This document shows positions 19,840 to 37,868 of a stretch of 58,052 nucleotides of DNA, piece by piece (within the stretch, counting starts at the first letter, position 1; every line of letters starts with the position of its first letter). Source of the stretch: an uncultured Lachnospiraceae bacterium (GTDB lineage: Bacteria; Bacillota; Clostridia; Lachnospirales; Lachnospiraceae). Location: contig CAKNHF010000019.1 in NCBI GenBank assembly GCA_930972465.1, positions 1 through 58,052 on the forward strand. The letters run 5' to 3'. A model generated the notes under the pieces. It was not told the origin of the DNA. It made no database searches and saw only the letters and a list, made by a program, of their open reading frames with translations. Both the position numbers and the translations under genes were made by a program.

Positions 19840-19871
19840 TTGACAAATGGAAAATGTTAGTTTAAACTTAC
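19840..19871 (+). promoter_or_regulatory. feoA promoter with GTTAG-type operator
   Basis: TTGACA (19840-19845), 17-bp spacer, TAAACT (19863-19868). The palindromic box GTTAGTTTAAACTTAC (19856-19871) covers the -10, a classic repressor position. The same box recurs at feoB, at the gene at 34198 and at enolase. The adjacent DtxR-family protein is the likely binder (inference). Confidence 0.65.
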
Positions 19872-19944
19872 AGTCGTTAGATGTGACGAGCGAGCTGGAG
19901 CATAAGCTCCCGCCGGGATATAAAAATGAGAGGGCTGAATTAAA

Positions 19945-20157
19945 ATGACTTTACTGGACGCAAAAGAAGGCGAAGAGTACATCGTAAAAGATATCACGAC
20001 AGATGACGAGGAGCTGGAAGCGTTCCTGTTTTCTCTGGGCTGTTACAGCGGGGAACCGATCACTGTGGTTTCGAGAGTGAGAGGCGGCTGTGTGGTATCC
20101 ATCAAAGATGGAAGATATAATATTGATACTGATTTAGCGAAAGCTATTTCAATATAA
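19945..20157 (+). CDS. feoA: Ferrous iron transport protein FeoA
   Basis: A 70-residue SH3-like FeoA protein, the small cytoplasmic partner of the FeoB ferrous iron transporter. Typical features are the start MTLLDAKEGEEYIVKDI, LFSLGCYSGEPITVVSR and the final GGCVVSIKDGRYNIDTDLAKAI. The ribosome site is weak (AGAGGG some 14 bases upstream). The leader contains a small GGAGC/GCTCC hairpin. A terminator separates it from feoB, so feoA can be expressed alone. Confidence 0.93.
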   Translation: MTLLDAKEGEEYIVKDITTDDEELEAFLFSLGCYSGEPITVVSRVRGGCVVSIKDGRYNIDTDLAKAISI

Positions 20158-20165
20158 AATAAAAG

Positions 20166-20198
20166 AAAAAAATAGCGATTCGGTTTGCTATTTTTTTT
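20166..20198 (+). terminator. Terminator between feoA and feoB
   Basis: AAATAGC pairs with GCTATTT around a 10-base loop and is followed by more T residues (eight in the run). Its place inside the iron operon suggests feoA transcripts mostly end here. Confidence 0.8.
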
Positions 20199-20224
20199 GA
20201 AACAGGGTTAGTTTATTCTAATCC
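20197..20224 (+). promoter_or_regulatory. Putative feoB promoter with second GTTAG-type box
   Basis: TTGAAA (20197-20202), 16-bp spacer, TAATCC (20219-20224). The box GTTAGTTTATTCTAAT (20207-20222) overlaps spacer and -10. It shares its first nine bases with the feoA box. Confidence 0.55.
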
Positions 20225-20247
20225 GGATAAAGGAGGAGATTTGTAAG

Positions 20248-22245
20248 ATGAGAATTGCTTTTGCAGGGAATCCGAACAGCGGAAAAACCACCATGTACAA
20301 TGCTCTGACGGGAAGAAATGAACGCGTTGGAAACTGGGCCGGTGTTACGGTAGAGCGAAAGGAAAGCCTGATCAAAAAGGCTTATTATGACGGGACGGAG
20401 GAACTGGTTGCGGTAGACCTTCCGGGGGCGTATTCCATGTCACCTTTTACTTCGGAGGAGAGCATCACCAGCAGCTATGTAAAGAATGAACATCCGGATG
20501 CGATCATCAATATCGTGGATGCGACAAACTTAAGCAGAAGCCTCTTTTTCACAACACAGCTTCTGGAACTCGGAGTTCCTGTTGTAGTGGCTCTCAACAA
20601 GAGTGACATAACCGATAAGAAGCAGACAAAGATCAATGAAAAACTTCTTTCGGAAAAGCTGGGGTGTCCGGTAATAAGGACGATTTCCACATCATCGGGG
20701 CATGTTGGTCTGAAAGAAGCTGTTGAAGCGGCCGCTTCCTTAAAGGGAAAGGGACAGAAAGCTCCATATGTTCAGGCGGACATTGATCTGCATGATAAAA
20801 ATGCGGTTGAGGCTGCTGACAGAAAGCGTTTTGATTTCGTCAACAGTATTGTAAAGCAGGTAGAGAAGAGAAAAGTCTTTACAAAGGATAAGAATGTACA
20901 GGATAAGATCGACAGCATCATCACACACAAGATCATAGGTATTCCGATTTTTGCAGTTGTGATTTTCCTCGTGTTCTACATATCTCAGACTACTCTGGGA
21001 ACCTGGATCGCCGACTGGCTTGTCGGATGGATCGAGACATTCCAGGGATGGGTCGGCGGAATGATGGAAAATGCAAATCCGCTGTTGTATGCGATCCTGG
21101 TTGATGGTATCATTGGCGGTGTCGGAGCAGTTGTGGGCTTCCTGCCTCTTGTAATGGTAATGTATTTTCTGATTGCACTCCTGGAAGACTGCGGATATAT
21201 GGCACGTGCAACTGTTGTGCTGGACCCGATCTTCAAGAGAGTGGGACTTTCCGGCAAATCCGTTATCCCTATGGTAATCGGTACCGGATGCGCAATCCCG
21301 GGCGTTATGGCTTCCCGTACGATCCGCAACGAGAGAGAGCGCAGAACAACTGCGATGCTCACACCGTTTATGCCGTGCGGTGCGAAGATTCCTGTTATTG
21401 CACTTTTTGCAGGAGCGTTCTTTGCGGATGCATGGTGGGTATCAGCTACGATGTACCTGGTAGGAATTGTTCTGGTCCTTCTCGGAGCACTGCTTGTTAA
21501 GAGAATCACAGGACAGAAGTACCGTAAATCTTTCTTTATCATTGAACTTCCGGAGTATAAGATCCCGAGCCTGAAGCGGGCATGCGTCTCCATGCTGGAA
21601 CGTGGTAAGGCATATATTATCAAGGCGGGAACGATCATCCTGGTCTGCAACACGGTTGTACAGATTATGCAGAGCTTTAACTGGCAGTTCCAGCTTGTGG
21701 AAGAAGGTGCGGAGAGTACTTCTATCCTGGCAAGCATCGCGCATCCGATTTCCATTCTGTTCATTCCGCTGGGATTCGGCGTATGGCAGCTTGCGGCGGC
21801 AGCAGTTACAGGATTTATTGCAAAAGAAAACGTAGTTGGTACGCTGGCTGTTGTTTACGGTGTTACAAACCTGATAGATACAGATGCACTGGCTCTGGTC
21901 GGAAGCGGAAATGAAGTTGCTACGATCATGGGGCTTACAAAAGCGGCAGCTCTTGCATACCTGATGTTCAATCTTTACACTCCGCCGTGTTTTGCGGCTC
22001 TCGGAGCAATGAATTCGGAGATGAAGAGTGGAAAATGGCTGTTTGGCGGTATCTGTCTCCAGCTTGCGACCGGTTATACAGTGGCGTTCTTTGTATATCA
22101 GATCGGAACTCTGGCTACGACAGGGGCTCTTGGAACTGCCTTTGTTCCGGGACTCATCGCGATTCTGGTATTCGCGGCTGTCATCATATGGAGAATTCGC
22201 AGGTCCGATCAGGAATTTGCGGCAGAATACAGCCTGCATGCGTAA
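20248..22245 (+). CDS. feoB: Ferrous iron transporter FeoB
   Basis: A 665-residue membrane transporter for Fe2+ with an N-terminal G domain. G1 is GNPNSGKTT (7-15), G3 is VDLPGAYSM, G4 is LNKSD. The membrane part begins at about residue 230 (IGIPIFAVVIFLVFYI). It carries the two Gate-type repeats, including ATVVLDPIFKRVGLSGKSVIPMVIGTGCAIPG split over residues about 330-360, and FMPCGAKIPVIALFAGAFF. The start follows GGAGGAG. The length is at the short end for FeoB. Two Cys-rich/HMA genes and a Fur-type gene follow in the same direction. Confidence 0.96.
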   Translation: MRIAFAGNPNSGKTTMYNALTGRNERVGNWAGVTVERKESLIKKAYYDGTEELVAVDLPGAYSMSPFTSEESITSSYVKNEHPDAIINIVDATNLSRSLFFTTQLLELGVPVVVALNKSDITDKKQTKINEKLLSEKLGCPVIRTISTSSGHVGLKEAVEAAASLKGKGQKAPYVQADIDLHDKNAVEAADRKRFDFVNSIVKQVEKRKVFTKDKNVQDKIDSIITHKIIGIPIFAVVIFLVFYISQTTLGTWIADWLVGWIETFQGWVGGMMENANPLLYAILVDGIIGGVGAVVGFLPLVMVMYFLIALLEDCGYMARATVVLDPIFKRVGLSGKSVIPMVIGTGCAIPGVMASRTIRNERERRTTAMLTPFMPCGAKIPVIALFAGAFFADAWWVSATMYLVGIVLVLLGALLVKRITGQKYRKSFFIIELPEYKIPSLKRACVSMLERGKAYIIKAGTIILVCNTVVQIMQSFNWQFQLVEEGAESTSILASIAHPISILFIPLGFGVWQLAAAAVTGFIAKENVVGTLAVVYGVTNLIDTDALALVGSGNEVATIMGLTKAAALAYLMFNLYTPPCFAALGAMNSEMKSGKWLFGGICLQLATGYTVAFFVYQIGTLATTGALGTAFVPGLIAILVFAAVIIWRIRRSDQEFAAEYSLHA

Positions 22246-22333
22246 ATATAGCAGATGAGAATATAGTCAGTGGTGGACAGAGAAAAGGTGCTTTGTCCAC
22301 CGCTTGACGTTAAAGCAGAGAGGACGGTATTTC

Positions 22334-22708
22334 ATGGCAAATGTTATAGCAGTGATTATTCTTGTGATTTTAGTCGGAAGCGCGGTCGCATATATAATAA
22401 ATGCGAAGAAAAAAGGCGTAAAGTGTATCGGATGTCCTGCCGGGGGAAACTGCCCCGGAAGCGGGAAAATGCCGAAGAAGAAACTTGAAGGTCGGGTGAT
22501 CGGCAGAAAGATGATGAAGATCTCTGGAATGAACTGTGCACACTGCGCGACGGACGTGACGATGATTCTGAATCAGATAGACGGTGTCCGGGCAGAGGTG
22601 AATCTTGCAAAGGGCAGTGCGAAGATATCATATGACAGGACAGTAGGAGATGATGTTCTGAGAAATGCAGTGGAGAAAATAGGATATCATGTGACCAGCA
22701 TATCCTAA
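22334..22708 (+). CDS. FeoB-associated Cys-rich membrane protein fused to HMA domain, copy 1
   Basis: A 124-residue two-part protein. The N-terminus (MANVIAVIILVILVGSAVAY, then IINAKKKGVKCIGCPAGGNCPG) matches the small FeoB-associated Cys-rich membrane protein family: one helix, then clustered Cys31, Cys34 and Cys40. After a basic linker (KMPKKKLEGR) comes a heavy-metal-associated domain with the metal loop GMNCAHC (Cys68, Cys71) and the usual end AVEKIGYHV. The start is ATG 22334, preceded by AGAGG; the frame open from 22304 lacks a site. It could tether a metallochaperone next to FeoB. That role is inferred. Confidence 0.85.
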   Translation: MANVIAVIILVILVGSAVAYIINAKKKGVKCIGCPAGGNCPGSGKMPKKKLEGRVIGRKMMKISGMNCAHCATDVTMILNQIDGVRAEVNLAKGSAKISYDRTVGDDVLRNAVEKIGYHVTSIS

Positions 22709-22743
22709 AGTTTTAAAATCGGGAAGATGAAAGAAGGAACGTT

Positions 22744-23118
22744 ATGGAAAACGTGATCATTATACTTATTCTGGTCGTTTTACTCAGTTTTGCGGTAAAA
22801 AATTCCATTAAACATTTTAAGGGGGAGGGCGCCTGCTGCGGAGGCGGTTCCGGATCCGTCAGAACAAAAAAACCAAAGAAAAAGAAGCTTGACGGTCCGG
22901 TGATCGGAAAGCGGACCATAGAGATATCCGGAATGCACTGCCGGAACTGTGTCAACAGTGTGACGAGAGCTCTGAACAGCATAGACGGTGTGGCGGCAAA
23001 GGTAAGTCTGCGTGACAGCAGGGCGGACGTGCTGCTGGACCGTATGGTCGATGAGAATGACCTGAGGCATGCTGTGGAGGGAGCGGGATTCAAGGTTATC
23101 AGCATAAAATCGTCATAA
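22744..23118 (+). CDS. FeoB-associated Cys-rich membrane protein fused to HMA domain, copy 2
   Basis: A tandem paralog of the preceding gene, also 124 residues. It has an N-terminal helix (MENVIIILILVVLLSFAV), a Cys pair (GACCGGG, Cys31-Cys32), a strongly basic linker (KKPKKKKLDGP) and an HMA domain with GMHCRNC (Cys66, Cys69). The short motif PVIGK before the HMA is shared with copy 1 (RVIGR). Compared with copy 1 it has lost the CxGCP...C pattern for CC, so the two may bind different metals. It is 35 bases after copy 1 and 30 before the Fur-type gene. Confidence 0.85.
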   Translation: MENVIIILILVVLLSFAVKNSIKHFKGEGACCGGGSGSVRTKKPKKKKLDGPVIGKRTIEISGMHCRNCVNSVTRALNSIDGVAAKVSLRDSRADVLLDRMVDENDLRHAVEGAGFKVISIKSS

Positions 23119-23148
23119 CGGCCGTGGGAAGGCTGATGGGAGGTAGCT

Positions 23149-23571
23149 GTGAGCAAGAAGGAACAGATTATTGAAAAACTGAAAGAAAACGGATGCCGTA
23201 TCACAAAGCAGCGTCTCATGTTGATTGATATTATTCTTGAAAATGACTGCTCGAGCTGTAAGGAGATCTTTTATAAAGCATCAAAGTGCGATGCTAAGAT
23301 CGGCGTGGCTACTGTGTACCGCATGATCAATGCGCTGGAGGAAATCGGAGCGATCAGCCGCAGGAATATGTATAAGGTGGAGTGCTCGGAAGACTGCCAG
23401 CCTGAGTATGGATGTCTGATTGTTCTGGACGATGATACTACATACCATCTGTCGCCGGGAAACTGGAATCAGGTGATTCAGGAAGGGTTGAAGCGGTGCG
23501 GCTATCTGAAGAATCAGAAGATTGCGAAAATTGAAGTACAGAATCCTCCGCAGGGGTCTGCGAAGGTTTGA
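23149..23571 (+). CDS. Atypical Fur-family regulator
   Basis: A 140-residue protein with a Fur winged-helix domain at the N-terminus (GCRITKQRLMLIDIIL, IGVATVYRMINALEEIGAISR). The C-terminal half is unusual for Fur. There is no HxH motif and only one histidine (His100), and the structural-zinc CxxC pairs are not in place. Instead there are eight cysteines (16, 34, 37, 47, 79, 83, 89, 117). It may sense something other than Fe2+ through His/Asp/Glu ligands, such as thiols, an Fe-S centre or another metal. The start is GTG behind GGGAGG. It closes the feoB cluster and is followed by two hairpins. Confidence 0.85.
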   Translation: MSKKEQIIEKLKENGCRITKQRLMLIDIILENDCSSCKEIFYKASKCDAKIGVATVYRMINALEEIGAISRRNMYKVECSEDCQPEYGCLIVLDDDTTYHLSPGNWNQVIQEGLKRCGYLKNQKIAKIEVQNPPQGSAKV

Positions 23572-23597
23572 CCGGACTGTTTGGAGGTCCGGTTTTT
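23571..23597 (+). terminator. Terminator after Fur-family gene
   Basis: ACCGGAC pairs with GTCCGGT around a 9-base loop, followed by TTTT. It starts at the last base of the stop codon. Confidence 0.75.
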
Positions 23598-23643
23598 CTA
23601 TGCAGACATACCGTCGGGAAAAAATAATCTGTCTCCGAGTGTG

Positions 23644-23671
23644 GAATCCTGTGCAGCAGGATTCTTTTTTT
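23644..23671 (+). terminator. Second terminator before the fru promoter
   Basis: GAATCCTG pairs with CAGGATTC and a run of seven T follows. It insulates the fru promoter from upstream reading. Confidence 0.85.
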
Positions 23672-23680
23672 GCGTATTTA

Positions 23681-23778
23681 TGAACGAAAATGAACGATTA
23701 TGAATTATGCATAAAAATTAAACTCTCAATTTGTGAACTATTATGATTGAAAATGAATGAATATGAATGTATAATGAA
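23681..23778 (+). repeat. Phased ATGAA repeats in fru promoter region
   Basis: Imperfect repeats of the form ATGAACGA/ATGAATGA occur with TGA at 23681, 23691 and 23701, then 23734, 23744, 23754 and 23764, with a weaker one at 23775. Within each group the step is exactly 10 bp, and the groups are 33 bp apart. This fits binding of several DeoR-family subunits to one DNA face, so it is a likely operator for the fruR product. Confidence 0.65.
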
Positions 23779-23803
23779 ATCATCAAGAGGAGGTAAAACA
23801 AAG

Positions 23804-24706
23804 ATGATCTACACAGTTACATTTAACCCTTCACTGGACTACATTGTTGAAACAGAGGGATTCAAACTGGGAAATACGAACCGGACCGTATCGGAGCGGA
23901 TCCTGCCGGGAGGAAAGGGAATCAATGTCTCCACTGTCCTCAAGAATCTTGGGATAGAGAGCACGGCGCTGGGGTTCGCCGCAGGCTTTACAGGGGATGA
24001 GATCCGGCGCAGAGTAGAGGAACTGGGATTCCGAAGCGAGTTTATCGAAGTAGATAATGGTTTCTCCAGGATCAATGTAAAAATGAAGGAATTTGACGGG
24101 ACAGAGATTAACGGGCAGGGTCCGGTTATCGGCAGCGGCGCCATTAAGGCTTTGATGCAGAAGCTGGATAAGCTTGGAGAAGGCGATACACTTGTGCTGG
24201 CAGGAAGCATTCCTTCCAGTATGCCGGATTCGATTTACAGTGATATCCTTGCCGCACTCCAGGACAGAGGCATCACTTTCGTGGTGGATGCGACGAAAGA
24301 TCTGCTGCTCAATGTCCTTGAGTATCATCCGTTTCTGATTAAGCCCAATCACCATGAACTGGGAGAGATTTTCGGGGTGACTCTGGAAGAGAGAGAGGAT
24401 GTGATCCCATATGCCCGGCAGCTTCAGGAGAAAGGCGCGGAGAATGTTCTTGTCTCTATGGGAGGAAGAGGCGCGGTTCTTCTCGATGCCGGACAGCAGG
24501 TGCATATGCTCCCTGTTCCGAAAGGAAAGCTGGTAAATGCTGTTGGTTCCGGTGACTCCATGGTAGCAGGATTTATCGCAGGATGGACAGAGAGAAAAGA
24601 TTATGAACACGCATTTAAGATGGGGATCGCGGCGGGAAGCGCAAGCGCATTCTCAGAGCTTCTGGCGACAGAAGAGGAGATCAGAGCGCTTTATGAAAAA
24701 CTGTAA
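23804..24706 (+). CDS. fruK: 1-phosphofructokinase
   Basis: A 300-residue PfkB-family kinase converting fructose 1-phosphate to fructose 1,6-bisphosphate. The motifs are YTVTFNPSLDYIV, LPGGKGINVSTVLKNLG (substrate site) and NAVGSGDSMVAGF (ATP site and catalytic Asp). The identity as 1-PFK instead of tagatose-6-phosphate kinase rests on its partner, the fructose PTS gene 42 bases downstream. GAGGAGG before the ATG at 23804 sets the start; an earlier in-frame ATG at 23747 lies inside the operator repeats. Confidence 0.94.
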   Translation: MIYTVTFNPSLDYIVETEGFKLGNTNRTVSERILPGGKGINVSTVLKNLGIESTALGFAAGFTGDEIRRRVEELGFRSEFIEVDNGFSRINVKMKEFDGTEINGQGPVIGSGAIKALMQKLDKLGEGDTLVLAGSIPSSMPDSIYSDILAALQDRGITFVVDATKDLLLNVLEYHPFLIKPNHHELGEIFGVTLEEREDVIPYARQLQEKGAENVLVSMGGRGAVLLDAGQQVHMLPVPKGKLVNAVGSGDSMVAGFIAGWTERKDYEHAFKMGIAAGSASAFSELLATEEEIRALYEKL

Positions 24707-24748
24707 AAGCGATCGGTTAAAATAAGTTGTGAAAGGAAGGAAACCAAG

Positions 24749-26665: not shown

Positions 26666-26778
26666 CAAACATCGGTAAGTCACTGTTTGCCGAAACGTCT
26701 GAAATATCGGAGAAAAGACTCTTACCGGAACTGCTTGCCGAAGCAGAAATTTCGAGGTAAAATAAGCAGTAAGTAGAA

Positions 26779-26811: not shown

Positions 26812-26838
26812 CAGAATTGCTTCGCGGAGGAAAGAATA

Positions 26839-27644: not shown

Positions 27645-27771
27645 TTTAATTAGGGAACTTTGTTCTCCATGCAATAAAAGCACTTCAGGTCTTTCCGGAG
27701 ACTCTGCATGTACCGGACTCATCCCTGAAAAAGCAGGTAGTGAGAATATTTATCAATAGACTCTGTTAGAA

Positions 27772-27801
27772 TTGACTTCCTTAAACTACGGTTGCTATGA
27801 T
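27772..27801 (+). promoter_or_regulatory. Promoter of the P1B cassette
   Basis: TTGACT (27772-27777), 18-bp spacer, TATGAT (27796-27801). The 125 bases between the fru terminator and this promoter show no gene or clear repeat. Confidence 0.6.
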
Positions 27802-27852: not shown

Positions 27853-27933
27853 ATGAAACAGCACAGATTCTGGGCATGGGCTGCGGTCTTTTGCTTTGTG
27901 ATGGTATTTTATACAGGCTACAGACACAAATAA
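27853..27933 (+). CDS. 26-residue membrane peptide
   Basis: A short reading frame, MKQHRFWAWA followed by AVFCFVMVFYTGYRHK, preceded by AAGGAAG and starting about 45 bases after the promoter -10. It is one hydrophobic segment flanked by basic residues at both ends, a typical single-span membrane micropeptide. It lies 16 bases before the next gene and so looks co-translated with the cassette. The family is not certain; a regulatory subunit for the P1B ATPase is a guess from position. Confidence 0.65.
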   Translation: MKQHRFWAWAAVFCFVMVFYTGYRHK

Positions 27934-27949
27934 ACAGGAGGTAATCGTG

Positions 27950-28252
27950 ATGATGGACATTTTTAAACTGAAAAGACTTGGAATTTTTGCAGGAGGCGTT
28001 CTGTTCGGAACAGCGGGAATCAAAATCCTTTCAAGCAGGGACGCAAAGAAAGTTTACACGAACTGTACGGCGGCTGTTTTAAGGGCAAAGGAATGCCTTA
28101 TGAAGACGGCGACAACGGTTCAGGAGAATGCAGAGGATATCCTTGCGGAGGCGCAGCAGATCAATGAAGAGAGAGCGGCTCGGGAGGCGGCAAACGAGGA
28201 GGAAACTGCAGAAGTAAACGCCGGTGCGGATGAATTTAAAGAAGTAGAATAG
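27950..28252 (+). CDS. Small membrane-anchored protein (DUF6110-like)
   Basis: A 100-residue protein. A glycine-rich hydrophobic segment (LGIFAGGVLFGTAGIKIL, about 9-27) precedes a stretch that reads DAKKVYTNCTAAVLRAKECLMK. A long charged amphipathic helix and an acidic tail (EEETAEVNAGADEFKEVE) follow. I believe this is the DUF6110 family, which I recall beside P-type ATPases; the name is from memory. AGGAGG is eight bases before the ATG at 27950; a GTG at 27947 is the alternative. The acidic tail could bind metal, which is inference. Confidence 0.75.
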   Translation: MMDIFKLKRLGIFAGGVLFGTAGIKILSSRDAKKVYTNCTAAVLRAKECLMKTATTVQENAEDILAEAQQINEERAAREAANEEETAEVNAGADEFKEVE

Positions 28253-28258: not shown

Positions 28259-30373
28259 ATGAAATTTATCATAAAGCATGAATTGAAAGGCCGTCTTCGT
28301 ATCCATGCCGTCCAGAGGAGGATGACATGTGCGGAGGCGGATACTCTTTCCTGGTTTCTTGAAAGGCAGGAGAACATAACGAGTGTCAAAGTATATGAAC
28401 GCACCGCGGACGCTGTTATCTGCTACACGGGAGAGCGGGAAGATCTGATCATGCTGCTGAAGCGGTTCTGCTACAGCGAGGTGGAAGTGCCGGAAAATGT
28501 ATCTGCAAGTTCCGGCCGCAGGATGAATGCGGAATATAAGGATAAGCTGATTACAAAAGCTGTGCTTCATTACGGCAGTAAATTTTTCCTGCCCTACCCC
28601 ATAAGGGCGGTGTACACAGTTCTGAAATCGGTGAAGTATATCTGGCAGGGAATCCAATGTCTGAAACAGGGAAAAATCGAAGTGCCGGTACTGGACGCCA
28701 CGGCGATCGGGGTGTCTGTGCTGCGGGGAGATATCAATACGGCGGGATCTGTCATGTTTCTGCTGGGCGTAGGAGAGATACTGGAAGAGTGGACTCACAA
28801 GAAATCGGTAGGAGACCTGGCGCGCAGTATGTCCCTGAATATAAAGAAAGTATGGCTTGAGAGAGACGGACAGGAGGTTCTGGTAAAAACCCCGGAGATC
28901 ATGCCCGGAGATACGGTTGTGGTTCACATGGGAAATGTGATCCCCTTTGACGGAGAAGTGTCTGCAGGAGAGGGAATGGTCAATCAGGCGTCGCTCACAG
29001 GAGAATCTATGCCGGTACGAAGGACGGCGGGACAGACCGTGTATGCGGGGACCGTTCTGGAGGAAGGAGAACTTAAGATCCTGGTGAAAGCGGTTTCCGG
29101 CTCCACGCGATTTGAAAAGATTGTTACCATGATTGAGGATTCCGAGAAGCTGAAGTCCTCTGTTGAGAGCCGGGCGGAACATCTGGCTGACAGACTTGTC
29201 CCCTATACGCTGCTGGGGACCGGGATCGCGTGGCTTGTCACAGGGAATATCACAAAAGCATTGTCTGTGCTTATGGTAGACTTTTCCTGCGCGCTGAAAC
29301 TTGCCATGCCGATCTCTGTACTTTCCGCGATCCGCGAAGCCGGACAGAGGAATATCACTGTGAAGGGCGGAAAATTTCTGGAGGCGGTAGCAGAGGCGGA
29401 CACGATTGTGTTTGATAAGACGGGAACCCTCACGAAGGCAAAACCGACAGTGAAGGAGATTGTCCCGTTTGGAGATTATCCGGAGGAGGAGTGTCTTCGG
29501 ATCGCAGCCTGCCTGGAGGAACATTTTCCGCATTCCATGGCCAAGGCTGTTGTGGATGCGGCAAAGAAACGCAACCTGTATCACGAGGAAATGCATTCGA
29601 AAGTGGAGTATGTTGTCGCTCATGGAATTTCGTCCTATATTGACAGCAGAAAGGTTGTGATAGGGAGCAGCCACTTTGTATTTGAGGACGAGGGATGCCG
29701 CGTGCGCCCTGAATATCAGGAGAGATTTGAACGACTTCCGACGGAATATTCCCACCTGTACCTGGCCATTGATCAGAAACTGACTGCGGTGATCTGTATC
29801 GAAGATCCGCTTCGGGATGAGGCGGGAGAGATGGTGAGGGAACTGCGGGCGGAAGGAATACGGAAGATTGTAATGATGACGGGCGACAGTGAGCGGACCG
29901 CGGCTGCAATTGCCAGGAGAGTGGGCGTGGATGAATATTATGCGGAAGTTCTGCCGGAAGATAAGGCAGGGTTTGTCGAGAGGGAGAAAGCAGCCGGAAG
30001 AAAGGTTATCATGATCGGCGACGGCATCAATGACTCGCCCGCGCTTTCCGCGGCTGACGCGGGAATCGCGATCAGCGACGGCGCTGAGATCGCGCGGGAG
30101 ATCGCGGATATTACCATTGCGGCAGATGACCTCAGGGAGATTGTGACACTGAAGAGGCTGTCTGACGGGATGATGAAGCGCATCCATCGCAATTACAGGG
30201 GGATTGTGGGAATTAATTCCGCCCTCATCCTTCTGGGAGTTGGGGGCGTGATCCAGCCAACAACCTCAGCTCTGCTCCACAACACCTCGACGCTTGCAAT
30301 CAGCCTGAGAAGTATGAGCAGTCTGCTGCCCCAGGACAGCAGAGAAAAAGCGGCCGGCACTGTCCGGATCTGA
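28259..30373 (+). CDS. P1B-type metal ATPase with FSC in place of CPC
   Basis: A 704-residue heavy-metal P-type ATPase. TGES (248-251), the phosphorylation site FDKTGTLT (Asp386) and GDGINDSPAL are intact. In the transmembrane metal site the usual CPC is FSC (residues 342-344, FSCALKLAMP). The SEHPL motif is replaced by EEHFPHSMAKAV. The N-terminus (about 1-75) looks like an HMA fold without CxxC. The last helices carry PTTSALLHNTSTLAISLRS. The substrate is therefore unclear and need not be Cu, Zn or Cd. No ribosome site precedes the ATG six bases after the upstream stop, so translation is probably coupled. Confidence 0.9.
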   Translation: MKFIIKHELKGRLRIHAVQRRMTCAEADTLSWFLERQENITSVKVYERTADAVICYTGEREDLIMLLKRFCYSEVEVPENVSASSGRRMNAEYKDKLITKAVLHYGSKFFLPYPIRAVYTVLKSVKYIWQGIQCLKQGKIEVPVLDATAIGVSVLRGDINTAGSVMFLLGVGEILEEWTHKKSVGDLARSMSLNIKKVWLERDGQEVLVKTPEIMPGDTVVVHMGNVIPFDGEVSAGEGMVNQASLTGESMPVRRTAGQTVYAGTVLEEGELKILVKAVSGSTRFEKIVTMIEDSEKLKSSVESRAEHLADRLVPYTLLGTGIAWLVTGNITKALSVLMVDFSCALKLAMPISVLSAIREAGQRNITVKGGKFLEAVAEADTIVFDKTGTLTKAKPTVKEIVPFGDYPEEECLRIAACLEEHFPHSMAKAVVDAAKKRNLYHEEMHSKVEYVVAHGISSYIDSRKVVIGSSHFVFEDEGCRVRPEYQERFERLPTEYSHLYLAIDQKLTAVICIEDPLRDEAGEMVRELRAEGIRKIVMMTGDSERTAAAIARRVGVDEYYAEVLPEDKAGFVEREKAAGRKVIMIGDGINDSPALSAADAGIAISDGAEIAREIADITIAADDLREIVTLKRLSDGMMKRIHRNYRGIVGINSALILLGVGGVIQPTTSALLHNTSTLAISLRSMSSLLPQDSREKAAGTVRI

Positions 30374-30742: not shown

Positions 30743-30770
30743 AATCTGATTTCATTCTGTGTCAGTCCTG

Positions 30771-31241
30771 TTATAATATAACTTCCATTCCGACTTTCTG
30801 CGGCTTCAGTCCACGGGCTAGATAGAATTTCATGGCGCTTTCATTGCAGCTCCATACATTCAGTGTGACGTTATAGCATCCGTTCTCTCGCGCAAAATCA
30901 AGAACAGCATCATAAATCATGGTGCCTATATGAGAGCCCCTCATATTTTCGTCGACACAGAGGTCATCGATATACAGAGTTCTGATATCGGTCAGGATAT
31001 TATCATTCATATGCTGCTGAAAAATGCAGAATGCGTATCCCATCAGACGGTCATTTTCGTCTACCGCGGCAAAAACAGGTCTTTTCTTATCTATCAGAAT
31101 TTCTTTTAACTGATTGTCGGTATATTTGCGCTGACCGTATTTGAACAGATCCGGCCGGCCGTTGTGGTGTACCATGGCTACCTGCAGCAGCAGCTCATGG
31201 ATTCTGGCAATGTCTTTTTCTGATGCCATACGTATTTTCAT
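30771..31241 (-). CDS. GNAT-family N-acetyltransferase
   Basis: A 156-residue acetyl-CoA-dependent acetyltransferase fold. It starts MKIRMASEKDIARIHELL. The acetyl-CoA loop region is LCVDENMRGSHIGTMIYDAV (motif A), followed by GCYNVTLNVWSCNESAMKFYLARGL split across motif B, which is typical of the family. The substrate is unknown. AAGGAG eight bases before the ATG at 31241 selects this start over the one at 31286. Confidence 0.88.
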   Translation of the reverse strand: MKIRMASEKDIARIHELLLQVAMVHHNGRPDLFKYGQRKYTDNQLKEILIDKKRPVFAAVDENDRLMGYAFCIFQQHMNDNILTDIRTLYIDDLCVDENMRGSHIGTMIYDAVLDFARENGCYNVTLNVWSCNESAMKFYLARGLKPQKVGMEVIL

Positions 31242-31369
31242 GTTCAAGTCTCCTTTTCTTTTCGTTTCACGGGAAAATTGTAGCATATTTTCTTCAGATG
31301 TGTAAAGGTTATTACGGGTGTTGTTAATATCTGAACTTTACAGATTGTAAAAATTAAAAATTTAACAGT

Positions 31370-31436
31370 TTGACTTTTCACAGAAGTTGGAGATATAATT
31401 ATTCTCTGGAATAGGGCCGCCGAAAATTTCCGGCGG
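31370..31436 (+). promoter_or_regulatory. Promoter and leader hairpin of cfa
   Basis: TTGACT (31370-31375), 18-bp spacer, TATAAT (31394-31399). The leader is about 120 bases and begins with a CCGCCG/CGGCGG hairpin (31417-31436). No known riboswitch pattern is seen. Confidence 0.65.
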
Positions 31437-31528
31437 AGGTATTCCGGTATGTTTTATTGTCAATGCTGAAAATACAGGCCTGTAATCCATACCATTGTGC
31501 CTGAAAGGAAAGAAAGGAATGGTGAAAA

Positions 31529-32692: not shown

Positions 32693-32711
32693 TTGTCAGA
32701 ATTTTCTGAAA

Positions 32712-32739
32712 ACAGGGGCCAAAGGGGTCAGGCCCCTGT
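32712..32739 (+). other. Inverted repeat after cfa
   Basis: A perfect 9-bp stem (ACAGGGGCC / GGCCCCTGT, 10-base loop) 20 bases after the cfa stop. There is no T-run; it is a probable 3'-end hairpin between convergent genes. Confidence 0.55.
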
Positions 32740-32763
32740 GATATCAAATTATCAGAATTGTTT

Positions 32764-33900
32764 CTACAATATTGAGAAAAGCGTCTCAAGACCAAATCTT
32801 TCATTGCTTTCAAGCATCTTTTCCATTTTAATTTTATTTGTATCTGAATGTTCTATTTCGCGGGAACAGCTGCAGGCCGTACTGACAACATAATCAAAAG
32901 ATATGTCTCCTCGGGTTTTCAGCCATTCGGCCCGGACAAATTCTCGGATCAGAACCAGTCCGGCCAGAGCAAACTTCATTTTTCCATAGGCATTGCCGTT
33001 GTAGACAGCTCCGCAGAAATATGTATAAATAAAATATGCCATAAGCTGTTCGGATGTTATGTCAGAGAAGAGCCGGTGAAAAGAATTGTAGATGTCATCG
33101 GAAGGAACCGGCGCATCTGAGAGGATCTCCCGGGCTTCCCGTGTGTGTGGCTTCCAGTCGGGGCGCAGCACTTCAAGATGATCAAGAATCACAAAAAGAT
33201 TCCCCACAGTACGCGCGGCGAGGATGTCATTCTGACCGGCTTTTTTCAGACGCTGTTCAAACCATGTCCAGACAGAAGGAGAAGAATATCTCACCATGAG
33301 AGTGTCCGTGTCGAATAATGCATGATGATCAATCCTCTGCTGAAGATCATGGACAAAAGCAAGGATAATGGCAGCCCTGAGCCTGAATGGATGACTGCGG
33401 TCCTGCAGTATTCTGAAAATCAGGTTCCGGGAGTCCATGAGTTTTGTAAAAAGAAAGAAATCAAAGTCCTGATAGGATTCGGTACGGGATGGTATCTCAG
33501 CATGAAGGAAATGCAGGGGATCACGGCTCTTCAAAATGAGTTCTGCTGCTGACGGACATGAAAGCGAAAGAGATATCTCCCTCAGCCCTTCAAATTCTTC
33601 AATGTGGCGGGGGTAGAGCCGGCAGGTGCGGCAGAAAGCCTTTTCTCCTCCGCCTTCCAGATAGAGATCACAGAGATTTTCGTCATTTAGAAATGCACAG
33701 CGTCCGTTATGCTGACGGAAACACTTGTTTTCCCAGTCGATTTCGTTTTTCAGTCGGCTGCCGAGACGCCCTTTTGTTCTGTGATATTTTTTTATGGAAG
33801 CCGGATCAATCTGAATCTGCCACCCGGCACAGCAGGTGTCAGGGCATGCTTCTGCGGTACATCTGAATTTTCTGTAATAATGTGGTACTGTATACTGCAA
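32764..33900 (-). CDS. FliB-like Cys-cluster protein (lysine-N-methylase family)
   Basis: A 378-residue protein of the flagellin lysine-N-methylase (FliB) family. The Cys cluster is at the N-terminus (FRCTAEACPDTCCAGWQ, CFRQHNGRCAFL, LCDLY, FCRTCRLYPR, SLSCPSAAELIL). FliB methylates flagellin in enteric bacteria, but no flagellar gene is in this window, so the substrate may differ. The start codon is TTG at 33900, eight bases after AGAGGA; no better ATG lies near. A minus-strand promoter is at 33943-33971. Confidence 0.82.
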   Translation of the reverse strand: MQYTVPHYYRKFRCTAEACPDTCCAGWQIQIDPASIKKYHRTKGRLGSRLKNEIDWENKCFRQHNGRCAFLNDENLCDLYLEGGGEKAFCRTCRLYPRHIEEFEGLREISLSLSCPSAAELILKSRDPLHFLHAEIPSRTESYQDFDFFLFTKLMDSRNLIFRILQDRSHPFRLRAAIILAFVHDLQQRIDHHALFDTDTLMVRYSSPSVWTWFEQRLKKAGQNDILAARTVGNLFVILDHLEVLRPDWKPHTREAREILSDAPVPSDDIYNSFHRLFSDITSEQLMAYFIYTYFCGAVYNGNAYGKMKFALAGLVLIREFVRAEWLKTRGDISFDYVVSTACSCSREIEHSDTNKIKMEKMLESNERFGLETLFSIL

Positions 33901-33942
33901 TTTATAATTCCTCTTTTCCTCTTCATTCTTTAACAGTTAAAT

Positions 33943-33971
33943 ATTATAGACGTAAAATCAGACTGATACAA
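33943..33971 (-). promoter_or_regulatory. Promoter of the FliB-like gene
   Basis: On the minus strand TTGTAT, 17-bp spacer, TATAAT, about 43 bases before the TTG start. Confidence 0.6.
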
Positions 33972-34105
33972 TGAAAAAAACTTTGGCATCGGATTATTTC
34001 CGGCGTATGAAATCGTTTATGCCGGAAGCCGACAGTTGAAGATGCCGGATTTTTAATAGAATCAGAAAATTAGAACAGACTGATAAAAAATATCAAAAAC
34101 AGATA

Positions 34106-34160
34106 TTGATATTGGTTCTCAATTATAGTATTATACAAATACGAGTTAGATATAACTAAC
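34106..34160 (+). promoter_or_regulatory. Promoter with Fur-box-like and GTTAG-type operators
   Basis: TTGATA (34106-34111), 17-bp spacer, TATTAT (34129-34134). TTGATATTGGTTCTCAATTA (34106-34125) resembles a Fur box. GTTAGATATAACTAAC (34145-34160), a perfect 5-6-5 inverted repeat, lies just downstream of the expected transcription start. Both are repressor positions, so the gene at 34198 is probably iron-responsive. The rest of the 297-base gap 33901-34197 shows nothing else besides the FliB-like promoter. Confidence 0.6.
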
Positions 34161-34197
34161 AAAAGCGGATAAACTTATACTCTACAGGAGGTCAGAT

Positions 34198-34479
34198 ATG
34201 AGCGTTGTGATCATCGGCGGACATGACAGAATGGTCTGCCAGTATAAAAGAATTTGTAAACAGTATAACTGCAAGGCAAAAGTATTTACGCAGATGTCGG
34301 CAAATCTGAGCAAACAGATCGGAAGTCCGGATCTTATCGTGCTTTTTACCAATACAGTCTCGCACAAAATGGTACGCTGTGCGGTAGAAGAAGCGGGCAG
34401 GTGCAACGCGGATGTGGTGAGATGTCACACCAGCAGTAAGAACGCGCTGGAGGAAATCCTTGAGAATGCCTGTGCATAA
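34198..34479 (+). CDS. DUF2325-family protein
   Basis: A 93-residue Rossmann-like protein of the DUF2325 type. It starts MSVVIIGGHDRMVCQYKRIC and contains LIVLFTNTVSHKMVRCAVEEA and VVRCHTSSKNALEEIL. Function unknown in the family as far as I know. Five cysteines and a conserved GGHD suggest metal or nucleotide binding, but this is a guess. AGGAGG is the ribosome site. The promoter carries two metal-regulator-like operators, which links it to the iron genes. A terminator follows. Confidence 0.8.
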   Translation: MSVVIIGGHDRMVCQYKRICKQYNCKAKVFTQMSANLSKQIGSPDLIVLFTNTVSHKMVRCAVEEAGRCNADVVRCHTSSKNALEEILENACA

Positions 34480-34514
34480 GAAAACGGATACAGCAGATTA
34501 TGAAAAACAAACAG

Positions 34515-34541
34515 GGCGGGTGCCGCAGCACCCGCCTTTGT
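34515..34541. terminator. Terminator between convergent genes
   Basis: GGCGGGTGC pairs with GCACCCGCC around a CGCA loop, followed by TTTGTT on the plus strand and by a T-rich stretch on the minus strand. Confidence 0.85.
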
Positions 34542-34579
34542 TGTCCGTTAAATCTTCTATTGCGTCAATACATCCGGAT

Positions 34580-35284
34580 TTACAGCTTCAGATTTTTGAA
34601 AAGCTCACCCAGGTTTGTTCCGATGCTTTCACTCTTCGGAATAACCACTTTTTCTTCCGGCTCTTCCTTAACCTCTTCGAGAGCTTTCATGCTCAGACTG
34701 ACTTTTCCGTCTTTGATGCCGATAACTTTCACGTCAACCGTATCGCCTACACTCAGCACGTCAGAGGGAACTTTTACACGTTTCTGTGAGATCTGAGACA
34801 CGTGAACAAGTCCGGACAGCCCGTTCTCCATCTTGACGAATGCGCCGTAGTTCTGCAGTGTTTCCACTGTGCCTTTCATCACGGTTCCGACTTTCAGGTT
34901 TGCAATCTGCTCTTCCCGCGCCTTGCGTTCTTTCTCCTTAAGGATCTCCCGCGCAGAGAGAACGAGACGGTTGCTGGCCTGATCAACATCAATGACCTGT
35001 ACTTCGATATCTTTCAGGAGATATGTCTCGAGGTCTTCAATGTAACTGAGAGACAGCTTGGAAGCAGGAACAAAGCCTCTTAACCCCTCTACCATGACGA
35101 TAACACCGCCGTTGACGACACCTTCTACTTTGACAGGAAGAACAGTCTTATTGTCCATATATTCCTGAACTCTGTTCCACGGATTGGCATCATCAAAATG
35201 TTCTTCATAATCAGCCATGGATTCAGCTGTGTCCGCTCCGGCAGTTTCATTTGTCTGTAATTCTTCTTTCATTTCTTCGCTCAT
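34580..35284 (-). CDS. S1 RNA-binding domain protein (ribosomal S1-like)
   Basis: A 234-residue protein with two S1 domains. After an acidic N-terminus (about 1-45) come domain 1 (VKVEGVVNGGVIVMVEGLRGFVPASKLS) and domain 2 (VGTVMKGTVETLQNYGAFVKMENGLSGLVHVSQIS), each described here by landmarks and not in full. A KSESIGTNLGELFKNLKL tail ends it. Short S1-like proteins of this kind serve as ribosomal S1 substitutes in Clostridia. GAGGTG seven bases before the ATG at 35284 fixes the start. Confidence 0.88.
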   Translation of the reverse strand: MSEEMKEELQTNETAGADTAESMADYEEHFDDANPWNRVQEYMDNKTVLPVKVEGVVNGGVIVMVEGLRGFVPASKLSLSYIEDLETYLLKDIEVQVIDVDQASNRLVLSAREILKEKERKAREEQIANLKVGTVMKGTVETLQNYGAFVKMENGLSGLVHVSQISQKRVKVPSDVLSVGDTVDVKVIGIKDGKVSLSMKALEEVKEEPEEKVVIPKSESIGTNLGELFKNLKL

Positions 35285-35326
35285 TGTGCAGCACCTCAAT
35301 TTACTTTCTTTTTGTTCAACAGCAAC

Positions 35327-35356
35327 AGTATACCATAAATTTACCGTAAAAAACAA
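35327..35356 (-). promoter_or_regulatory. Promoter of the S1-domain gene
   Basis: On the minus strand TTGTTT, 18-bp spacer, TATACT, about 45 bases before the start. Confidence 0.5.
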
Positions 35357-35462
35357 CTGGTATAAGCATTTCTGAAATATAAGGTTGACGAAACTGCAAA
35401 AAAATGGCAACCTATCTATTAGACGAATGGCTTATACATCACAGGGATTGGAGAATGAAAGG

Positions 35463-37112
35463 ATGAACAGAGAAAAAGAAAGAAAAATATATGTGATAGG
35501 ACATAAAAATCCGGATACAGATTCAGTGTGCTCGGCGATCGCTTATGCAACGCTTAAGACAAAGATAACAGGAAAACATTACGAAGCCCGCAGAGCAGGA
35601 CAGCTGAACGAAGAGACTCAGTATGTGCTGGAACATTTTCATGTAAAAGCGCCGAGACTTCTGACGGATCTGAGGGAACAGATCAAAGACGTGGAACTGA
35701 AAGAGGTAGAGGGACTTCGGAGCAGCATCTCTATCCGTACAGCATGGGAGAAAATGCGCGAGTCCAACATACATACCCTTCCGGTAACCAGGGATGGAAA
35801 ACTGGAGGGAGTCATCACGATCGGAGATATTGCGAAGACATACATGGAAGTATACGACAGTACGATTCTCTCCAAGGCAAGAACTCAGTACAGAAATATT
35901 GCCAGGGCGGTGGAAGGCGAGGTGGTGACAGGAAACGAACATAGTTATCTTCTGAACGGAAAGGTCGCTATCGCCGCATCCAGCAGAATTCTTATGTCTG
36001 ATTTTATTGATCAGGATGATCTCGTGATCATGGGAGACAGAAAGGACGCGCAGCAATGCGCAATAGATAAAGGAGCAAGCTGCATGGTCGTGTGTCAGAA
36101 TGCACCGATATCCGAACACATCATCCGCCAGGCAGAAGAAAAGCAGATCGTGATTATAAGAACACACCACGATACTTTTACAGCCGCTCAGCATATCAAT
36201 CAAAGTATTCCGGTGAAATATTTCATGACAAAGGACAATCTTGTAACATTTAAGCTGAAAGACTATGTTGATGATGTGAAGGAAGTTATGGCGAAAAAGA
36301 GATTCCGGGATTTCCCGATTGTAGATAATAAAGGAAAATTTCTCGGGCTGATTTCAAGGCGTCGTCTTCTCAATGTAAAGAAGAAGCAGGTTATCCTTGT
36401 GGACCATAATGAAAAAAATCAGGCAGTTGACGGGGTTGAGGAGGCAGATGTTCTTGAAATCATCGATCACCACAGACTGAGCAGTATAGAGACGATGGGA
36501 CCGGTATTTTTCCGCAATCAGCCCGTCGGATGCACGGCTACGATTATCTGGCAGATGTATCAGGAAGCAGGAGAGGATATTGATCCCATCAACGCAGGAC
36601 TGTTATGTTCGGCTATCATATCCGATACACTGATGTTCCGGTCGCCTACATGCACACCTCTTGATGAAGCAGCTGCGCGAAGACTTGCGGAGATCGCCGG
36701 AATTGAGATAGAAGAGCTGGCTCAGGAAATGTTTAATGCGGGCAGCAATCTGAAAGGAAAGAGCGCTGAGGAGATATGTTTCCTTGATTTCAAGCAGTTT
36801 ACAGTGAATGATACTGTATTCGGCGTAGGGCAGGTCAATTCCATGAGTTCGGAGGAACTGAAAGAACTGAAGAAGATCGTAAAACCGCATCTTGAGAAAG
36901 CCCGCCAGAATCACGGCCTGGATATGATCTTTTTCATGCTGACCAATATTATTGCCGAATCATCCGAGCTTCTCTGCTGCGGAGAAGGCGCGCGGGAGAT
37001 GATCATAGGGGCATATGATCTCAGGGAGGATACAGAAGATATCATGCTGAAAGGCGTAGTGTCGAGAAAAAAACAGCTTGTGCCGACTCTTGTCGGGGCG
37101 CTGCAGCAATAG
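35463..37112 (+). CDS. CBS-domain Mn-dependent inorganic pyrophosphatase (family II)
   Basis: A 549-residue DHH-type pyrophosphatase with a regulatory insert. It hydrolyses PPi to two phosphates in the cytoplasm. The N-terminal metal motif is VIGHKNPDTDSVCSAIAYA. The insert has a first CBS motif (RTAWEKMRESNIHTLPVTRDG, about 85-125), a DRTGG-like region (about 170-240) and a second CBS (MAKKRFRDFPIVDNKGKFLGLISRR). The DHH motif is LEIIDHHRLSS and the DHHA2 domain closes the protein. CBS insertion gives adenine-nucleotide control in known relatives. The ATG at 35463 follows GGAG; the longer frame lacks a site. Confidence 0.93.
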   Translation: MNREKERKIYVIGHKNPDTDSVCSAIAYATLKTKITGKHYEARRAGQLNEETQYVLEHFHVKAPRLLTDLREQIKDVELKEVEGLRSSISIRTAWEKMRESNIHTLPVTRDGKLEGVITIGDIAKTYMEVYDSTILSKARTQYRNIARAVEGEVVTGNEHSYLLNGKVAIAASSRILMSDFIDQDDLVIMGDRKDAQQCAIDKGASCMVVCQNAPISEHIIRQAEEKQIVIIRTHHDTFTAAQHINQSIPVKYFMTKDNLVTFKLKDYVDDVKEVMAKKRFRDFPIVDNKGKFLGLISRRRLLNVKKKQVILVDHNEKNQAVDGVEEADVLEIIDHHRLSSIETMGPVFFRNQPVGCTATIIWQMYQEAGEDIDPINAGLLCSAIISDTLMFRSPTCTPLDEAAARRLAEIAGIEIEELAQEMFNAGSNLKGKSAEEICFLDFKQFTVNDTVFGVGQVNSMSSEELKELKKIVKPHLEKARQNHGLDMIFFMLTNIIAESSELLCCGEGAREMIIGAYDLREDTEDIMLKGVVSRKKQLVPTLVGALQQ

Positions 37113-37127
37113 CAGGGGGAGGAGATT

Positions 37128-37736
37128 ATGGGAAAACAGATCTGGAAACCGGGAAATATGCTTTATCCTCTTCCTGCCGTAATGGTCAGCGTCGGAGACA
37201 GGGACGGAAACAGAAATATCTTTACCGTGGCCTGGACGGGGACGGTATGTACAAATCCGCCGATGGCATATATTTCTGTCCGCCCTGAGAGGTATTCTTA
37301 TCATATGATTGAGGAAAGCGGAGAATTTGTTATCAATCTTACTACGGAGAAGCTGGCGCAGGCTGCGGATTTCTGTGGCGTCCGTTCGGGCCGGGATCTG
37401 GATAAATGGAAGGAATGCCGGCTGACAGAGCGGATGGCGCATTCTCTGCGGTATGCGCCATGCATTGAAGAGTCTCCGGTTAATATCGAGTGCCGTGTGG
37501 TGAAAACAGAAAAACTGGGAAGTCATCATATGTTTCTCGGGGAAGTCACAGCCGTACAGGTGGATGACGCCTATATGGATGAAAATGGGAAGTTTGATCT
37601 GAACAGGACCGGACTTATTGCCTATTCTCATGGGGAGTATCTGGGAATGGGCAGGAAGCTGGGGACGTTCGGCTGCAGCGTAAGGAAAAAGAAAGGTGCC
37701 GGAAATCCGGGAAAACGAAAAAAAAGAAAAGTATAG
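37128..37736 (+). CDS. Flavin reductase-like FMN-binding protein
   Basis: A 202-residue split-barrel flavoprotein. Landmarks are YPLPAVMVSVGDRDGNRNI, TNPPMAYISVRPERYSY, GEFVINLTTEKLAQAADFCG and HHMFLGEVTAVQVDD. Such proteins bind FMN and act as flavin reductases or electron carriers. A basic tail (RKKKGAGNPGKRKKRKV) is unusual and could bind nucleic acid or membrane. It starts 15 bases after the pyrophosphatase stop behind GGGGGAGGAG, so the two are likely one operon. Confidence 0.88.
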   Translation: MGKQIWKPGNMLYPLPAVMVSVGDRDGNRNIFTVAWTGTVCTNPPMAYISVRPERYSYHMIEESGEFVINLTTEKLAQAADFCGVRSGRDLDKWKECRLTERMAHSLRYAPCIEESPVNIECRVVKTEKLGSHHMFLGEVTAVQVDDAYMDENGKFDLNRTGLIAYSHGEYLGMGRKLGTFGCSVRKKKGAGNPGKRKKRKV

Positions 37737-37784
37737 CATTGTAAAAAAGGGAAAGAATATCAGAGAGCAATATATCATGACAAA

Positions 37785-37868
37785 ATGATAATCAATCTCA
37801 ATAAATGACTTGAATCCGAAACCTGATTCTGATAAGATACATATAGTTAGTTAAAGCTAACTATATGT
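37785..37868 (+). promoter_or_regulatory. eno promoter with Fur-box-like and GTTAG-type operators
   Basis: TTGAAT (37810-37815), 17-bp spacer, TAAGAT (37833-37838). ATGATAATCAATCTCAATAA (37785-37804) resembles a Fur box and shares TGATA and TCTCAAT with the element at 34106. GTTAGTTAAAGCTAAC (37846-37861) sits at the expected transcription start and extends to a perfect 12-bp inverted repeat over 37839-37868. Confidence 0.6.

Follow-up and report, generated by a model that had tools for sequence, protein, structure and literature searches.

Which protein reads the 16-bp palindrome GTTAG-N6-CTAAC that recurs at promoters in a 58,052-bp contig of an uncultured Lachnospiraceae bacterium, and in response to which metal? 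The contig (CAKNHF010000019.1, assembly GCA_930972465.1), called the window here, was analysed as a whole. It belongs to a 2.81-Mb genome that is 86% complete, and its closest named relative, judged by the regulator described below, is Mediterraneibacter glycyrrhizinilyticus (95% identity). We conclude that the palindrome, hereafter the box, is most probably the operator of a clostridial iron regulon, where it would be bound by one dimer of the DtxR-type protein encoded in the window. A metal regulon reaching from iron uptake to glycolysis had been proposed earlier from the letters of this contig. This original prediction is supported by the spacing of the box, by the genes behind it, by its conservation at feoA, feoB, DUF2325 and enolase (eno), and by its co-occurrence with the regulator. 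Binding by the regulator, Fe2+ as co-repressor, repression rather than activation, and binding of Fur are what we infer from the sequences.

Box positions and promoter architecture

The argument leans on the following features (aa, amino acids).

19342..19728, minus strand: DtxR-family regulator, 128 aa, putative box binder (PF01325 and PF02742 above cut-off)
19840..19868, plus strand: feoA promoter, TTGACA-17-TAAACT, with its -10 inside box 1 (promoter scan)
19856..19871, plus strand: box 1 at feoA, GTTAGTTTAAACTTAC, one mismatch (pattern scan)
19876..19891, plus strand: degenerate second box at feoA, GTTAGATGTGACGAGC, two mismatches, 20 bp downstream of box 1 (pattern scan)
19945..20157, plus strand: feoA (translation)
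20207..20222, plus strand: box 2 at feoB, GTTAGTTTATTCTAAT, one mismatch (pattern scan)
20248..22245, plus strand: feoB, ferrous iron transporter (translation)
27765..27780, plus strand: box 3 at a DUF6110/ATPase operon, GTTAGAATTGACTTCC, two mismatches (pattern scan)
34145..34160, plus strand: box 4 at DUF2325, exact (pattern scan)
34198..34479, plus strand: DUF2325 protein, 93 aa (PF10087, E 8e-36)
37846..37861, plus strand: box 5 at enolase, exact (pattern scan)
37952..39247, plus strand: enolase, boxed copy (TIGR01060)

We name feoA by its own sequence and its position ahead of feoB, and feoB by its own sequence.

The four sites of the original prediction were all recovered, those at 34145 and 37846 being exact and those at 19856 and 20207 carrying one mismatch each. 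The degenerate box at 19876 and a fifth target at 27765 are additions to them. There are two exact boxes in the window against 0.013 expected, a count reached by none of 300 dinucleotide shuffles, and four boxes with at most one mismatch against 0.72 expected, reached by four of the 300. At two mismatches there is no excess (13 versus 13.0 expected in shuffles). Therefore, the exact and near-exact boxes of the window carry meaning, and most of the two-mismatch entries are noise.

In all 26 feoA promoters compared, chosen for a feoA at least 75% identical and a box with no more than one mismatch, the TTGACA -35 sits 10 bp ahead of the box. Together with the 17-bp spacer, this places the feoA -10 inside the box. 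Twenty-one of these 26 promoters carry another GTTAG half-box 20 bp downstream of the first, and box pairs with the same pitch are found at feoB of three relatives (L032, L053 and L073). At DUF2325, the -10 ends 10 bp ahead of the box. At eno, a -10-like TAAGAT, seen by eye and not listed by the scanner, ends 7 bp ahead of it, similarly in relatives. The boxes at feoA, DUF2325 and eno lie where a bound protein would be expected to block transcription. The earlier claim that all four boxes overlap or follow a -10 holds for these three, but not for feoB, where a search for -10 and -35 ahead of the gene gave no convincing element.

A possible intrinsic terminator, a hairpin with a T run, was seen by eye in the gap between feoA and the feoB box (20170-20199, plus strand; absent from the scanner list). 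Its position suggests that feoB has a regulated start of its own.

A single preferred spacing

TTAG and CTAA separated by 0 to 20 bp occur 60 times in the whole genome. Spacing 6 accounts for eight exact copies, three of them inside the window, and the 20 other spacings average 2.6. In 56 loci of regulator relatives (900 kb) there are 56 matches at spacing 6 and 0 to 10 at each other spacing from 0 to 20, a figure enriched by design, since these loci were picked for the regulator. The genus is the fairer control. Its 37 genomes, the own genome included, hold 213 exact GTTAG-N6-CTAAC (in 37 of 37) versus 13 exact GTTAG-N8-CTAAC (in 10 of 37). Six of these 13 control matches are one 18-bp palindrome, GTTAGTTACTCAACTAAC, shared by G001, G004, G013, G025 and G034; because it recurs identically, it is probably a separate, unrelated element.

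The half-site TTAG had been noted as shared with DtxR/IdeR boxes, and the spacing as setting the box apart from them. The first observation stands and the second is overturned. In the excerpt of PMC8464063, TTAGGNNNNCCTAA, i.e. TTAG-N6-CTAA, is proposed as the target of one IdeR dimer, the single-dimer half of the 19-bp site. A spacing foreign to the DtxR family was rejected on this ground (excerpt of PMC8464063), and the strong preference for spacing 6 is that of a one-dimer, IdeR-type operator. The full two-dimer IdeR box TTAGGTTAGSCTAACCTAA was not found in the window, where the sites are single palindromes and the second one at feoA is degenerate and 20 bp away. The box reads as one dimer's half of the classical IdeR site with the flanking G moved outside. 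It differs from the IdeR/DtxR box in this outer G (GTTAG instead of TTAGG), and in occurring singly or in pairs of 20-bp pitch instead of as two interleaved sites.

Genes behind the boxes

All 62 exact sites of the genus genomes G001-G011 were fetched and their genes read; sites in G012-G036 were only counted, save some enolase loci, and locus L207 was set aside. Each of the 62 sites was assigned solely to the neighbouring gene with the highest score. Since many of the class names derive from proteins encoded next to boxes, nearness to a named gene is partly by construction. The informative facts in this tally are recurrence across genomes, known domains and position.

DUF2325 is the most constant member of the regulon, with 11 sites in 11 of 11 genomes. 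Enolase has nine sites in 9 of 11 genomes, and ABC transporters like the one on contig C38 of the own genome have 10 sites in seven genomes, to which a 5′ fragment and another ABC ATPase each add one site. Smaller classes are DUF454 (four sites, a fifth, L122, being filed under a divergent MarR gene), Trep_Strep-type membrane proteins (four, one by eye), GNAT (three), AraC (two, each with another Trep_Strep-type gene on the opposite side), LCM-type methyltransferase (two), feoA (two, by eye), and a ferric-reductase-like protein of 120 aa (two, with a match just below the Pfam cut-off). Single sites were found at flavodoxin, dtxR itself, a Fur-family gene, an ahpC-like gene, DUF3793, a lipoprotein-like gene, whose homologue in G003 has two more boxes filed under a distant opposite-side gene, and a GPP34-domain gene with a methyltransferase-like gene across the box. 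Site L110:7412 has only a distant secreted-protein gene.

Fifty-seven of the 62 sites lie outside any ATG-started frame of at least 100 aa. The remaining five immediately precede the start of an irtABC-like gene, DUF2325 or eno, and the frames covering them therefore look spurious or over-long. Rather than being scattered at random, the boxes recur at promoters of a few gene families, several of them iron- or redox-linked, and in this respect the predicted regulon held.

Outside the window, the own genome has five further exact TTAG-N6-CTAA. These are found at ferredoxin (C12), an ABC transporter (C38), a TetR/ABC-fragment pair (C3), ahpC-trxB (C3), and the gene of a 77-aa protein near nrdJ (C25). 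The 4Fe-4S ferredoxin, ABC and TetR domains were confirmed by family models. The C38 transporter gene is read as IrtAB-like, and ahpC, trxB and nrdJ carry putative names from their translations. The boxed ABC gene beside ahpC (L005, on G000:C3, 1014-1463, minus strand) encodes a 149-aa transmembrane-half fragment and is apparently truncated. A one-mismatch genomic site within an ecfA-like coding frame (C39:7234) is probably a chance match and was set aside.

Enolase and DUF2325

The own genome encodes two enolases, the boxed copy of the window and an unboxed one (G000:C29) with the checked active-site residues present. The boxed clade, at 83-95% identity to the window's enolase, has 20 sequences in the tree, 17 of them with an exact box. 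More distant enolases of the genus have neither an exact nor a one-mismatch box. Another group is made up of six enolases at 56-60% identity, in which none of the nine checked active-site residues is lost. Five enolase-like proteins at 35-38% identity (L148 and L149 in G010, L153 in G025, L155 in G031 and L157 in G033) have lost at least two of the nine. A pure paralog story was rejected, both because the boxed clade clusters with L203 and L205, each the single, unboxed enolase of a different family in the order, and because the copies at 56-60% identity stand apart with their active-site residues intact. The tree has very long branches and only its two main groups were used; partial enolase pieces in G016 and G037 were left aside.

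Enolase control would make sense if a lack of iron slows the ferredoxin-dependent oxidation of pyruvate, in which case more glycolytic flux to lactate would be wanted. There is a real, if minority, chance that the regulator activates or modestly tunes enolase instead of repressing it. No complete enolase other than the boxed one was found in G025, G031, G033 and G039, and it would be strange for iron-rich cells to silence their only glycolytic enolase. Furthermore, MntR of Bacillus subtilis both represses and activates, according to the excerpt of PMC11275975. These four genomes are, however, 88 to 99% complete, so that a second enolase may be missing from them, and the box lies 7 bp beyond the -10-like hexamer in the window, with a similar arrangement in aligned relatives, which is a repressing position. 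Repression thus remains the preferred reading at eno. In G010, the only complete enolase found is unboxed.

In the DUF2325 protein, five cysteines (C14, C20, C25, C61 and C76) and three histidines (H9, H56 and H77) are invariant in five aligned sequences. The predicted fold is a small alpha/beta domain (best of five models, mean predicted local distance difference test score 88.6; range 57.5 to 88.6), and a fold search returned only generic Rossmann-like matches, which indicate no function. We predict a metal-linked role for this protein.

The regulator and its metal

Membership in the DtxR family is indicated by both domains of the regulator (PF01325, 44.8 bits; PF02742, 56.4 bits), and it is the sole PF02742 match found in the 86% complete genome. 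It ends at residue 128 without a C-terminal SH3-like domain, only the two N-terminal domains matching Pfam. The ligand set N11/E14/H80/C102/E105/H106 is retained in 55 of 56 relatives. All 56 have a cysteine at the position of IdeR Cys102, together with Glu105 and His106, as is typical of iron sensing; a role of Cys102 in iron-type sensing by IdeR/DtxR is described in the excerpt of PMC10317159. The same cysteine takes the place of Glu99, the manganese-site ligand of MntR, in 56 of 56. Where IdeR/DtxR have the Met10 ligand, the regulator of the window and 55 of the 56 relatives have Asn, and L074 has Asp. The closest solved structures are MntR proteins. With an MntR-like architecture, an IdeR-type cysteine and Asn at Met10, the regulator is a hybrid.

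Like IdeR and DtxR of Actinobacteria, it has winged helix-turn-helix and dimerisation domains, a Cys102-type ligand and, as a predicted target, TTAG-N6-CTAA per dimer (excerpt of PMC8464063). Unlike them, it has no SH3 domain, Asn for Met10 and other reading-helix residues, and its host is a low-GC Clostridium relative. With B. subtilis MntR it shares the short two-domain architecture, the closest solved structures, and a putative seating of neighbouring dimers on DNA. On mneP, MntR dimers occupy 18-bp sites 1 bp apart, a 19-bp pitch that is near the 20-bp pitch found here (excerpt of the preprint PMC11275975). Cys for Glu99, iron-type instead of manganese targets, and a different box distinguish it from MntR.

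A manganese sensor of the MntR kind, the boxes then marking a manganese regulon, is improbable. Apart from the MntR structures being its best matches, NCBIfam MntR models match the regulator, below cut-off, and Asn at the Met10 position is listed for MntR in the excerpt of PMC10317159. Against this stand the replacement of the MntR glutamate by Cys in every relative, and the targets themselves: those named include feoAB, flavodoxin, ferredoxin and the ferric-reductase-like gene, and no manganese transporter was recognised among the 62 sites read. An iron sensor therefore remains the preferred reading. In low-GC Gram-positives, iron control is said to fall to Fur and manganese control to DtxR-type proteins (excerpt of PMC10317159), and the apparent control of feo by a DtxR-type protein would depart from this picture.

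Regulator and box across relatives

As originally predicted, the regulator gene is divergent from feoA (19342..19728, minus strand, and 19945..20157, plus strand). In each of the 24 relative loci in which feoA was detected next to dtxR, the two genes enclose a box with no more than one mismatch. Two other genomes, Clostridium beijerinckii HUN142 and Clostridium sp. C2-6-12, have DUF2325 as the divergent partner of dtxR and two exact boxes in the gap, and in G008 dtxR adjoins a Fur-family gene, again with a box between. Across the order, the mean number of boxes is 4.51 (reversed-letter control 1.72) in the 72 genomes with a regulator relative, matched at E 1e-25 or better, and 1.82 (control 2.73) in the 44 without one. 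Eight genomes, six of them with an unboxed regulator copy, were searched for exact boxes, and all eight have them (1 to 14 each). Sixteen boxed loci were read there, some overlapping, which leaves fewer independent places. Ten of them fit the regulon (feo, dtxR-DUF2325, DUF2325, Trep_Strep and irtABC-like), with the fitting feoA/feoB loci in Schaedlerella and others.

Several observations weigh against an iron regulon read by this protein. The order-wide rank test (p 3e-7) ignores kinship, and the reversed-letter control is imperfect: in the genus it gives 50 for N6 yet 124 for N8, which makes it a poor yardstick. For 24 of the 56 dtxR relatives, the nearest 700 bp contain no box with one mismatch or fewer, although L021, L039 and L074 among them lie within 140 bp of a contig end. 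Six of the 16 boxed loci are unfit or unclear (L209, L212, L213, L218, L219 and L222), including both G166 loci read, and three of the 20 boxed-clade enolases (G010, G038 and G041) have no box. The DNA-reading residues are unlike those of both IdeR and MntR. Asn at position 11, where DtxR/IdeR have Met and as found in some MntR, makes manganese or mixed sensing possible. Finally, we know of no established iron role for DUF2325, GNAT, methyltransferase, AraC or Trep_Strep.

Another possible reader of the box is encoded downstream of feoB.

23149-23571, plus strand: third, short Fur-family protein (PF01475 over about half of the profile)

That another protein, most plausibly this one, reads the box, with dtxR a mere neighbour or target, is unlikely, and slightly more so than a manganese sensor. 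It is consistent with the homologues that adjoin a box in G008 and L027, and with the one found in the own genome. The palindrome, however, has the one-dimer geometry of DtxR/IdeR (excerpt of PMC8464063) and not the 7-1-7 geometry of Fur, which occurs separately in some of the same promoters; moreover, dtxR shares its boxed intergenic region with DUF2325 in the two Clostridium genomes. The regulator remains our candidate for the binder. Chance palindromes, formed by TTAG and CTAA clustered in AT-rich intergenic DNA, would fit the missing two-mismatch excess in the window and the site within the ecfA-like frame, but have next to no probability, as the excess is limited to a single spacing, a control that we count as a refutation, and the boxes are retained in orthologous promoters of different species.

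Fur-like sites and possible dual control

Three Fur-like sites lie near boxes 4 and 5, and one more near box 3 is given with its operon below.

34081-34095: Fur-like site at DUF2325 (Fur-like scan)
34107..34121, plus strand: another Fur-like site at DUF2325, TGATATTGGTTCTCA, two mismatches, between the -35 and the -10 (same word scored in relative L111)
37786..37800, plus strand: Fur-like site TGATAATCAATCTCA, one mismatch, 60 bp before box 5, start to start (Fur-like scan)

The Fur-like consensus TGAKAATNATTMTCA was sought in the promoters over a stretch reaching from 90 bp upstream of the box to 30 bp downstream. The 61 promoters scored comprise 56 with an assigned gene in G001-G011 and five of the window; six of the 62 sites, having no assigned gene, were excluded. 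The best match averages 3.0 mismatches versus 4.8 in 40 shuffles per promoter. At eno, a candidate Fur site, a 7-1-7 repeat like TGATAATNATTATCA with 0-2 mismatches, lies 60 to 62 bp upstream of the box in each of the 10 promoters scored (nine in G001-G009 and that of the window), the shuffles averaging 4.2-4.6 with a lowest single value of 1. Sites with 0 to 2 mismatches were also found in 7 of 12 DUF2325 promoters (window included), 4 of 4 DUF454, 2 of 2 ferric-reductase-like and 2 of 10 ABC promoters, in the single flavodoxin promoter, and in the DUF6110/ATPase operon of the window. The ferredoxin and C38 ABC promoters of the own genome have two mismatches, and its other sites three to five. 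At GNAT, methyltransferase, AraC and Trep_Strep, and at feoA and feoB of the window, the scan gave four to six mismatches, no better than shuffles.

Because some of the boxes have Fur-like sites nearby, the regulator probably shares control with another factor. The regulon resembles the Fur regulon of Firmicutes (7-1-7 box) in its feo and flavodoxin content and in the Fur-like sites of some promoters. It differs in that the GTTAG box is a separate element, and in that the LCM-type methyltransferase, GNAT and Trep_Strep have no Fur-like site beyond shuffles. The own genome has three Fur-family genes. In L027 and L133, a box precedes homologues of the short one at 23149-23571.

Proposed mechanism and relevance

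When Fe2+ is plentiful, the metal-loaded dimer would sit on the -10 or start region at feoA, DUF2325 and eno, or on the -35 at the DUF6110/ATPase operon, and block RNA polymerase. At feoA, the degenerate box 20 bp away may allow two dimers to bind next to each other. A drop in iron would release the genes for ferrous uptake, ABC transporters, flavodoxin or ferredoxin, the ferrosome-like pump, DUF2325 and enolase. The Fur-like sites at eno, the ferrosome-like operon, DUF2325 and some others could add a second iron-responsive layer.

More tentatively, gut Clostridia may read iron through both Fur and a DtxR-type sensor, the latter placing enolase and the Cys/His-rich DUF2325 under iron control. 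DUF2325 would then be a new handler of iron or iron-sulfur, and enolase a valve that shifts carbon off ferredoxin-dependent fermentation when iron is short; we hold this wider picture possible rather than probable. A literature search among open-licence papers, with most subscription papers outside it, gave no description of the GTTAG box or its regulon; DUF2325 comes up in four of the papers listed. If the regulon is real and widespread, iron control by a DtxR-type protein in gut Clostridia would revise the picture of Fur for iron and DtxR for manganese (as given in the excerpt of PMC10317159). It would also provide a defined list of targets, with a glycolytic enzyme and a functionally uncharacterised protein family among them, and GTTAG-N6-CTAAC would be a simple DNA word for mapping iron-responsive genes in gut bacteria.

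A ferrosome-like operon as fifth target

The fifth target comprises a promoter with two candidate operators and two genes.

27741..27755, plus strand: Fur-like 7-1-7 site TGAGAATATTTATCA, one mismatch (Fur-like scan)
27947..28252, plus strand: DUF6110 protein, 101 aa (PF19605)
28259..30373, plus strand: heavy-metal P1B-type ATPase, 704 aa (TIGR01525, PF00122 and PF00702)

By architecture alone, we take this pair to resemble the ferrosome genes fezAB, and its products to be FezA- and FezB-like candidates. Box 3 overlaps the -35, TTGACT. In 13 of 17 relatives the box of this operon has one mismatch, and in 4 of 17 there is none within two mismatches. In Clostridioides difficile, fezA and fezB are reported as Fur-repressed (excerpt of the review PMC12574912). 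The window operon is like them in placing a membrane protein and a transporter under what would be iron-type control (same excerpt), and unlike them in having a GTTAG box over the -35 besides the Fur-like site. Between the boxed promoter and the DUF6110 gene, a 26-codon frame (27853-27933, plus strand) follows a purine-rich stretch and could encode a small hydrophobic peptide.

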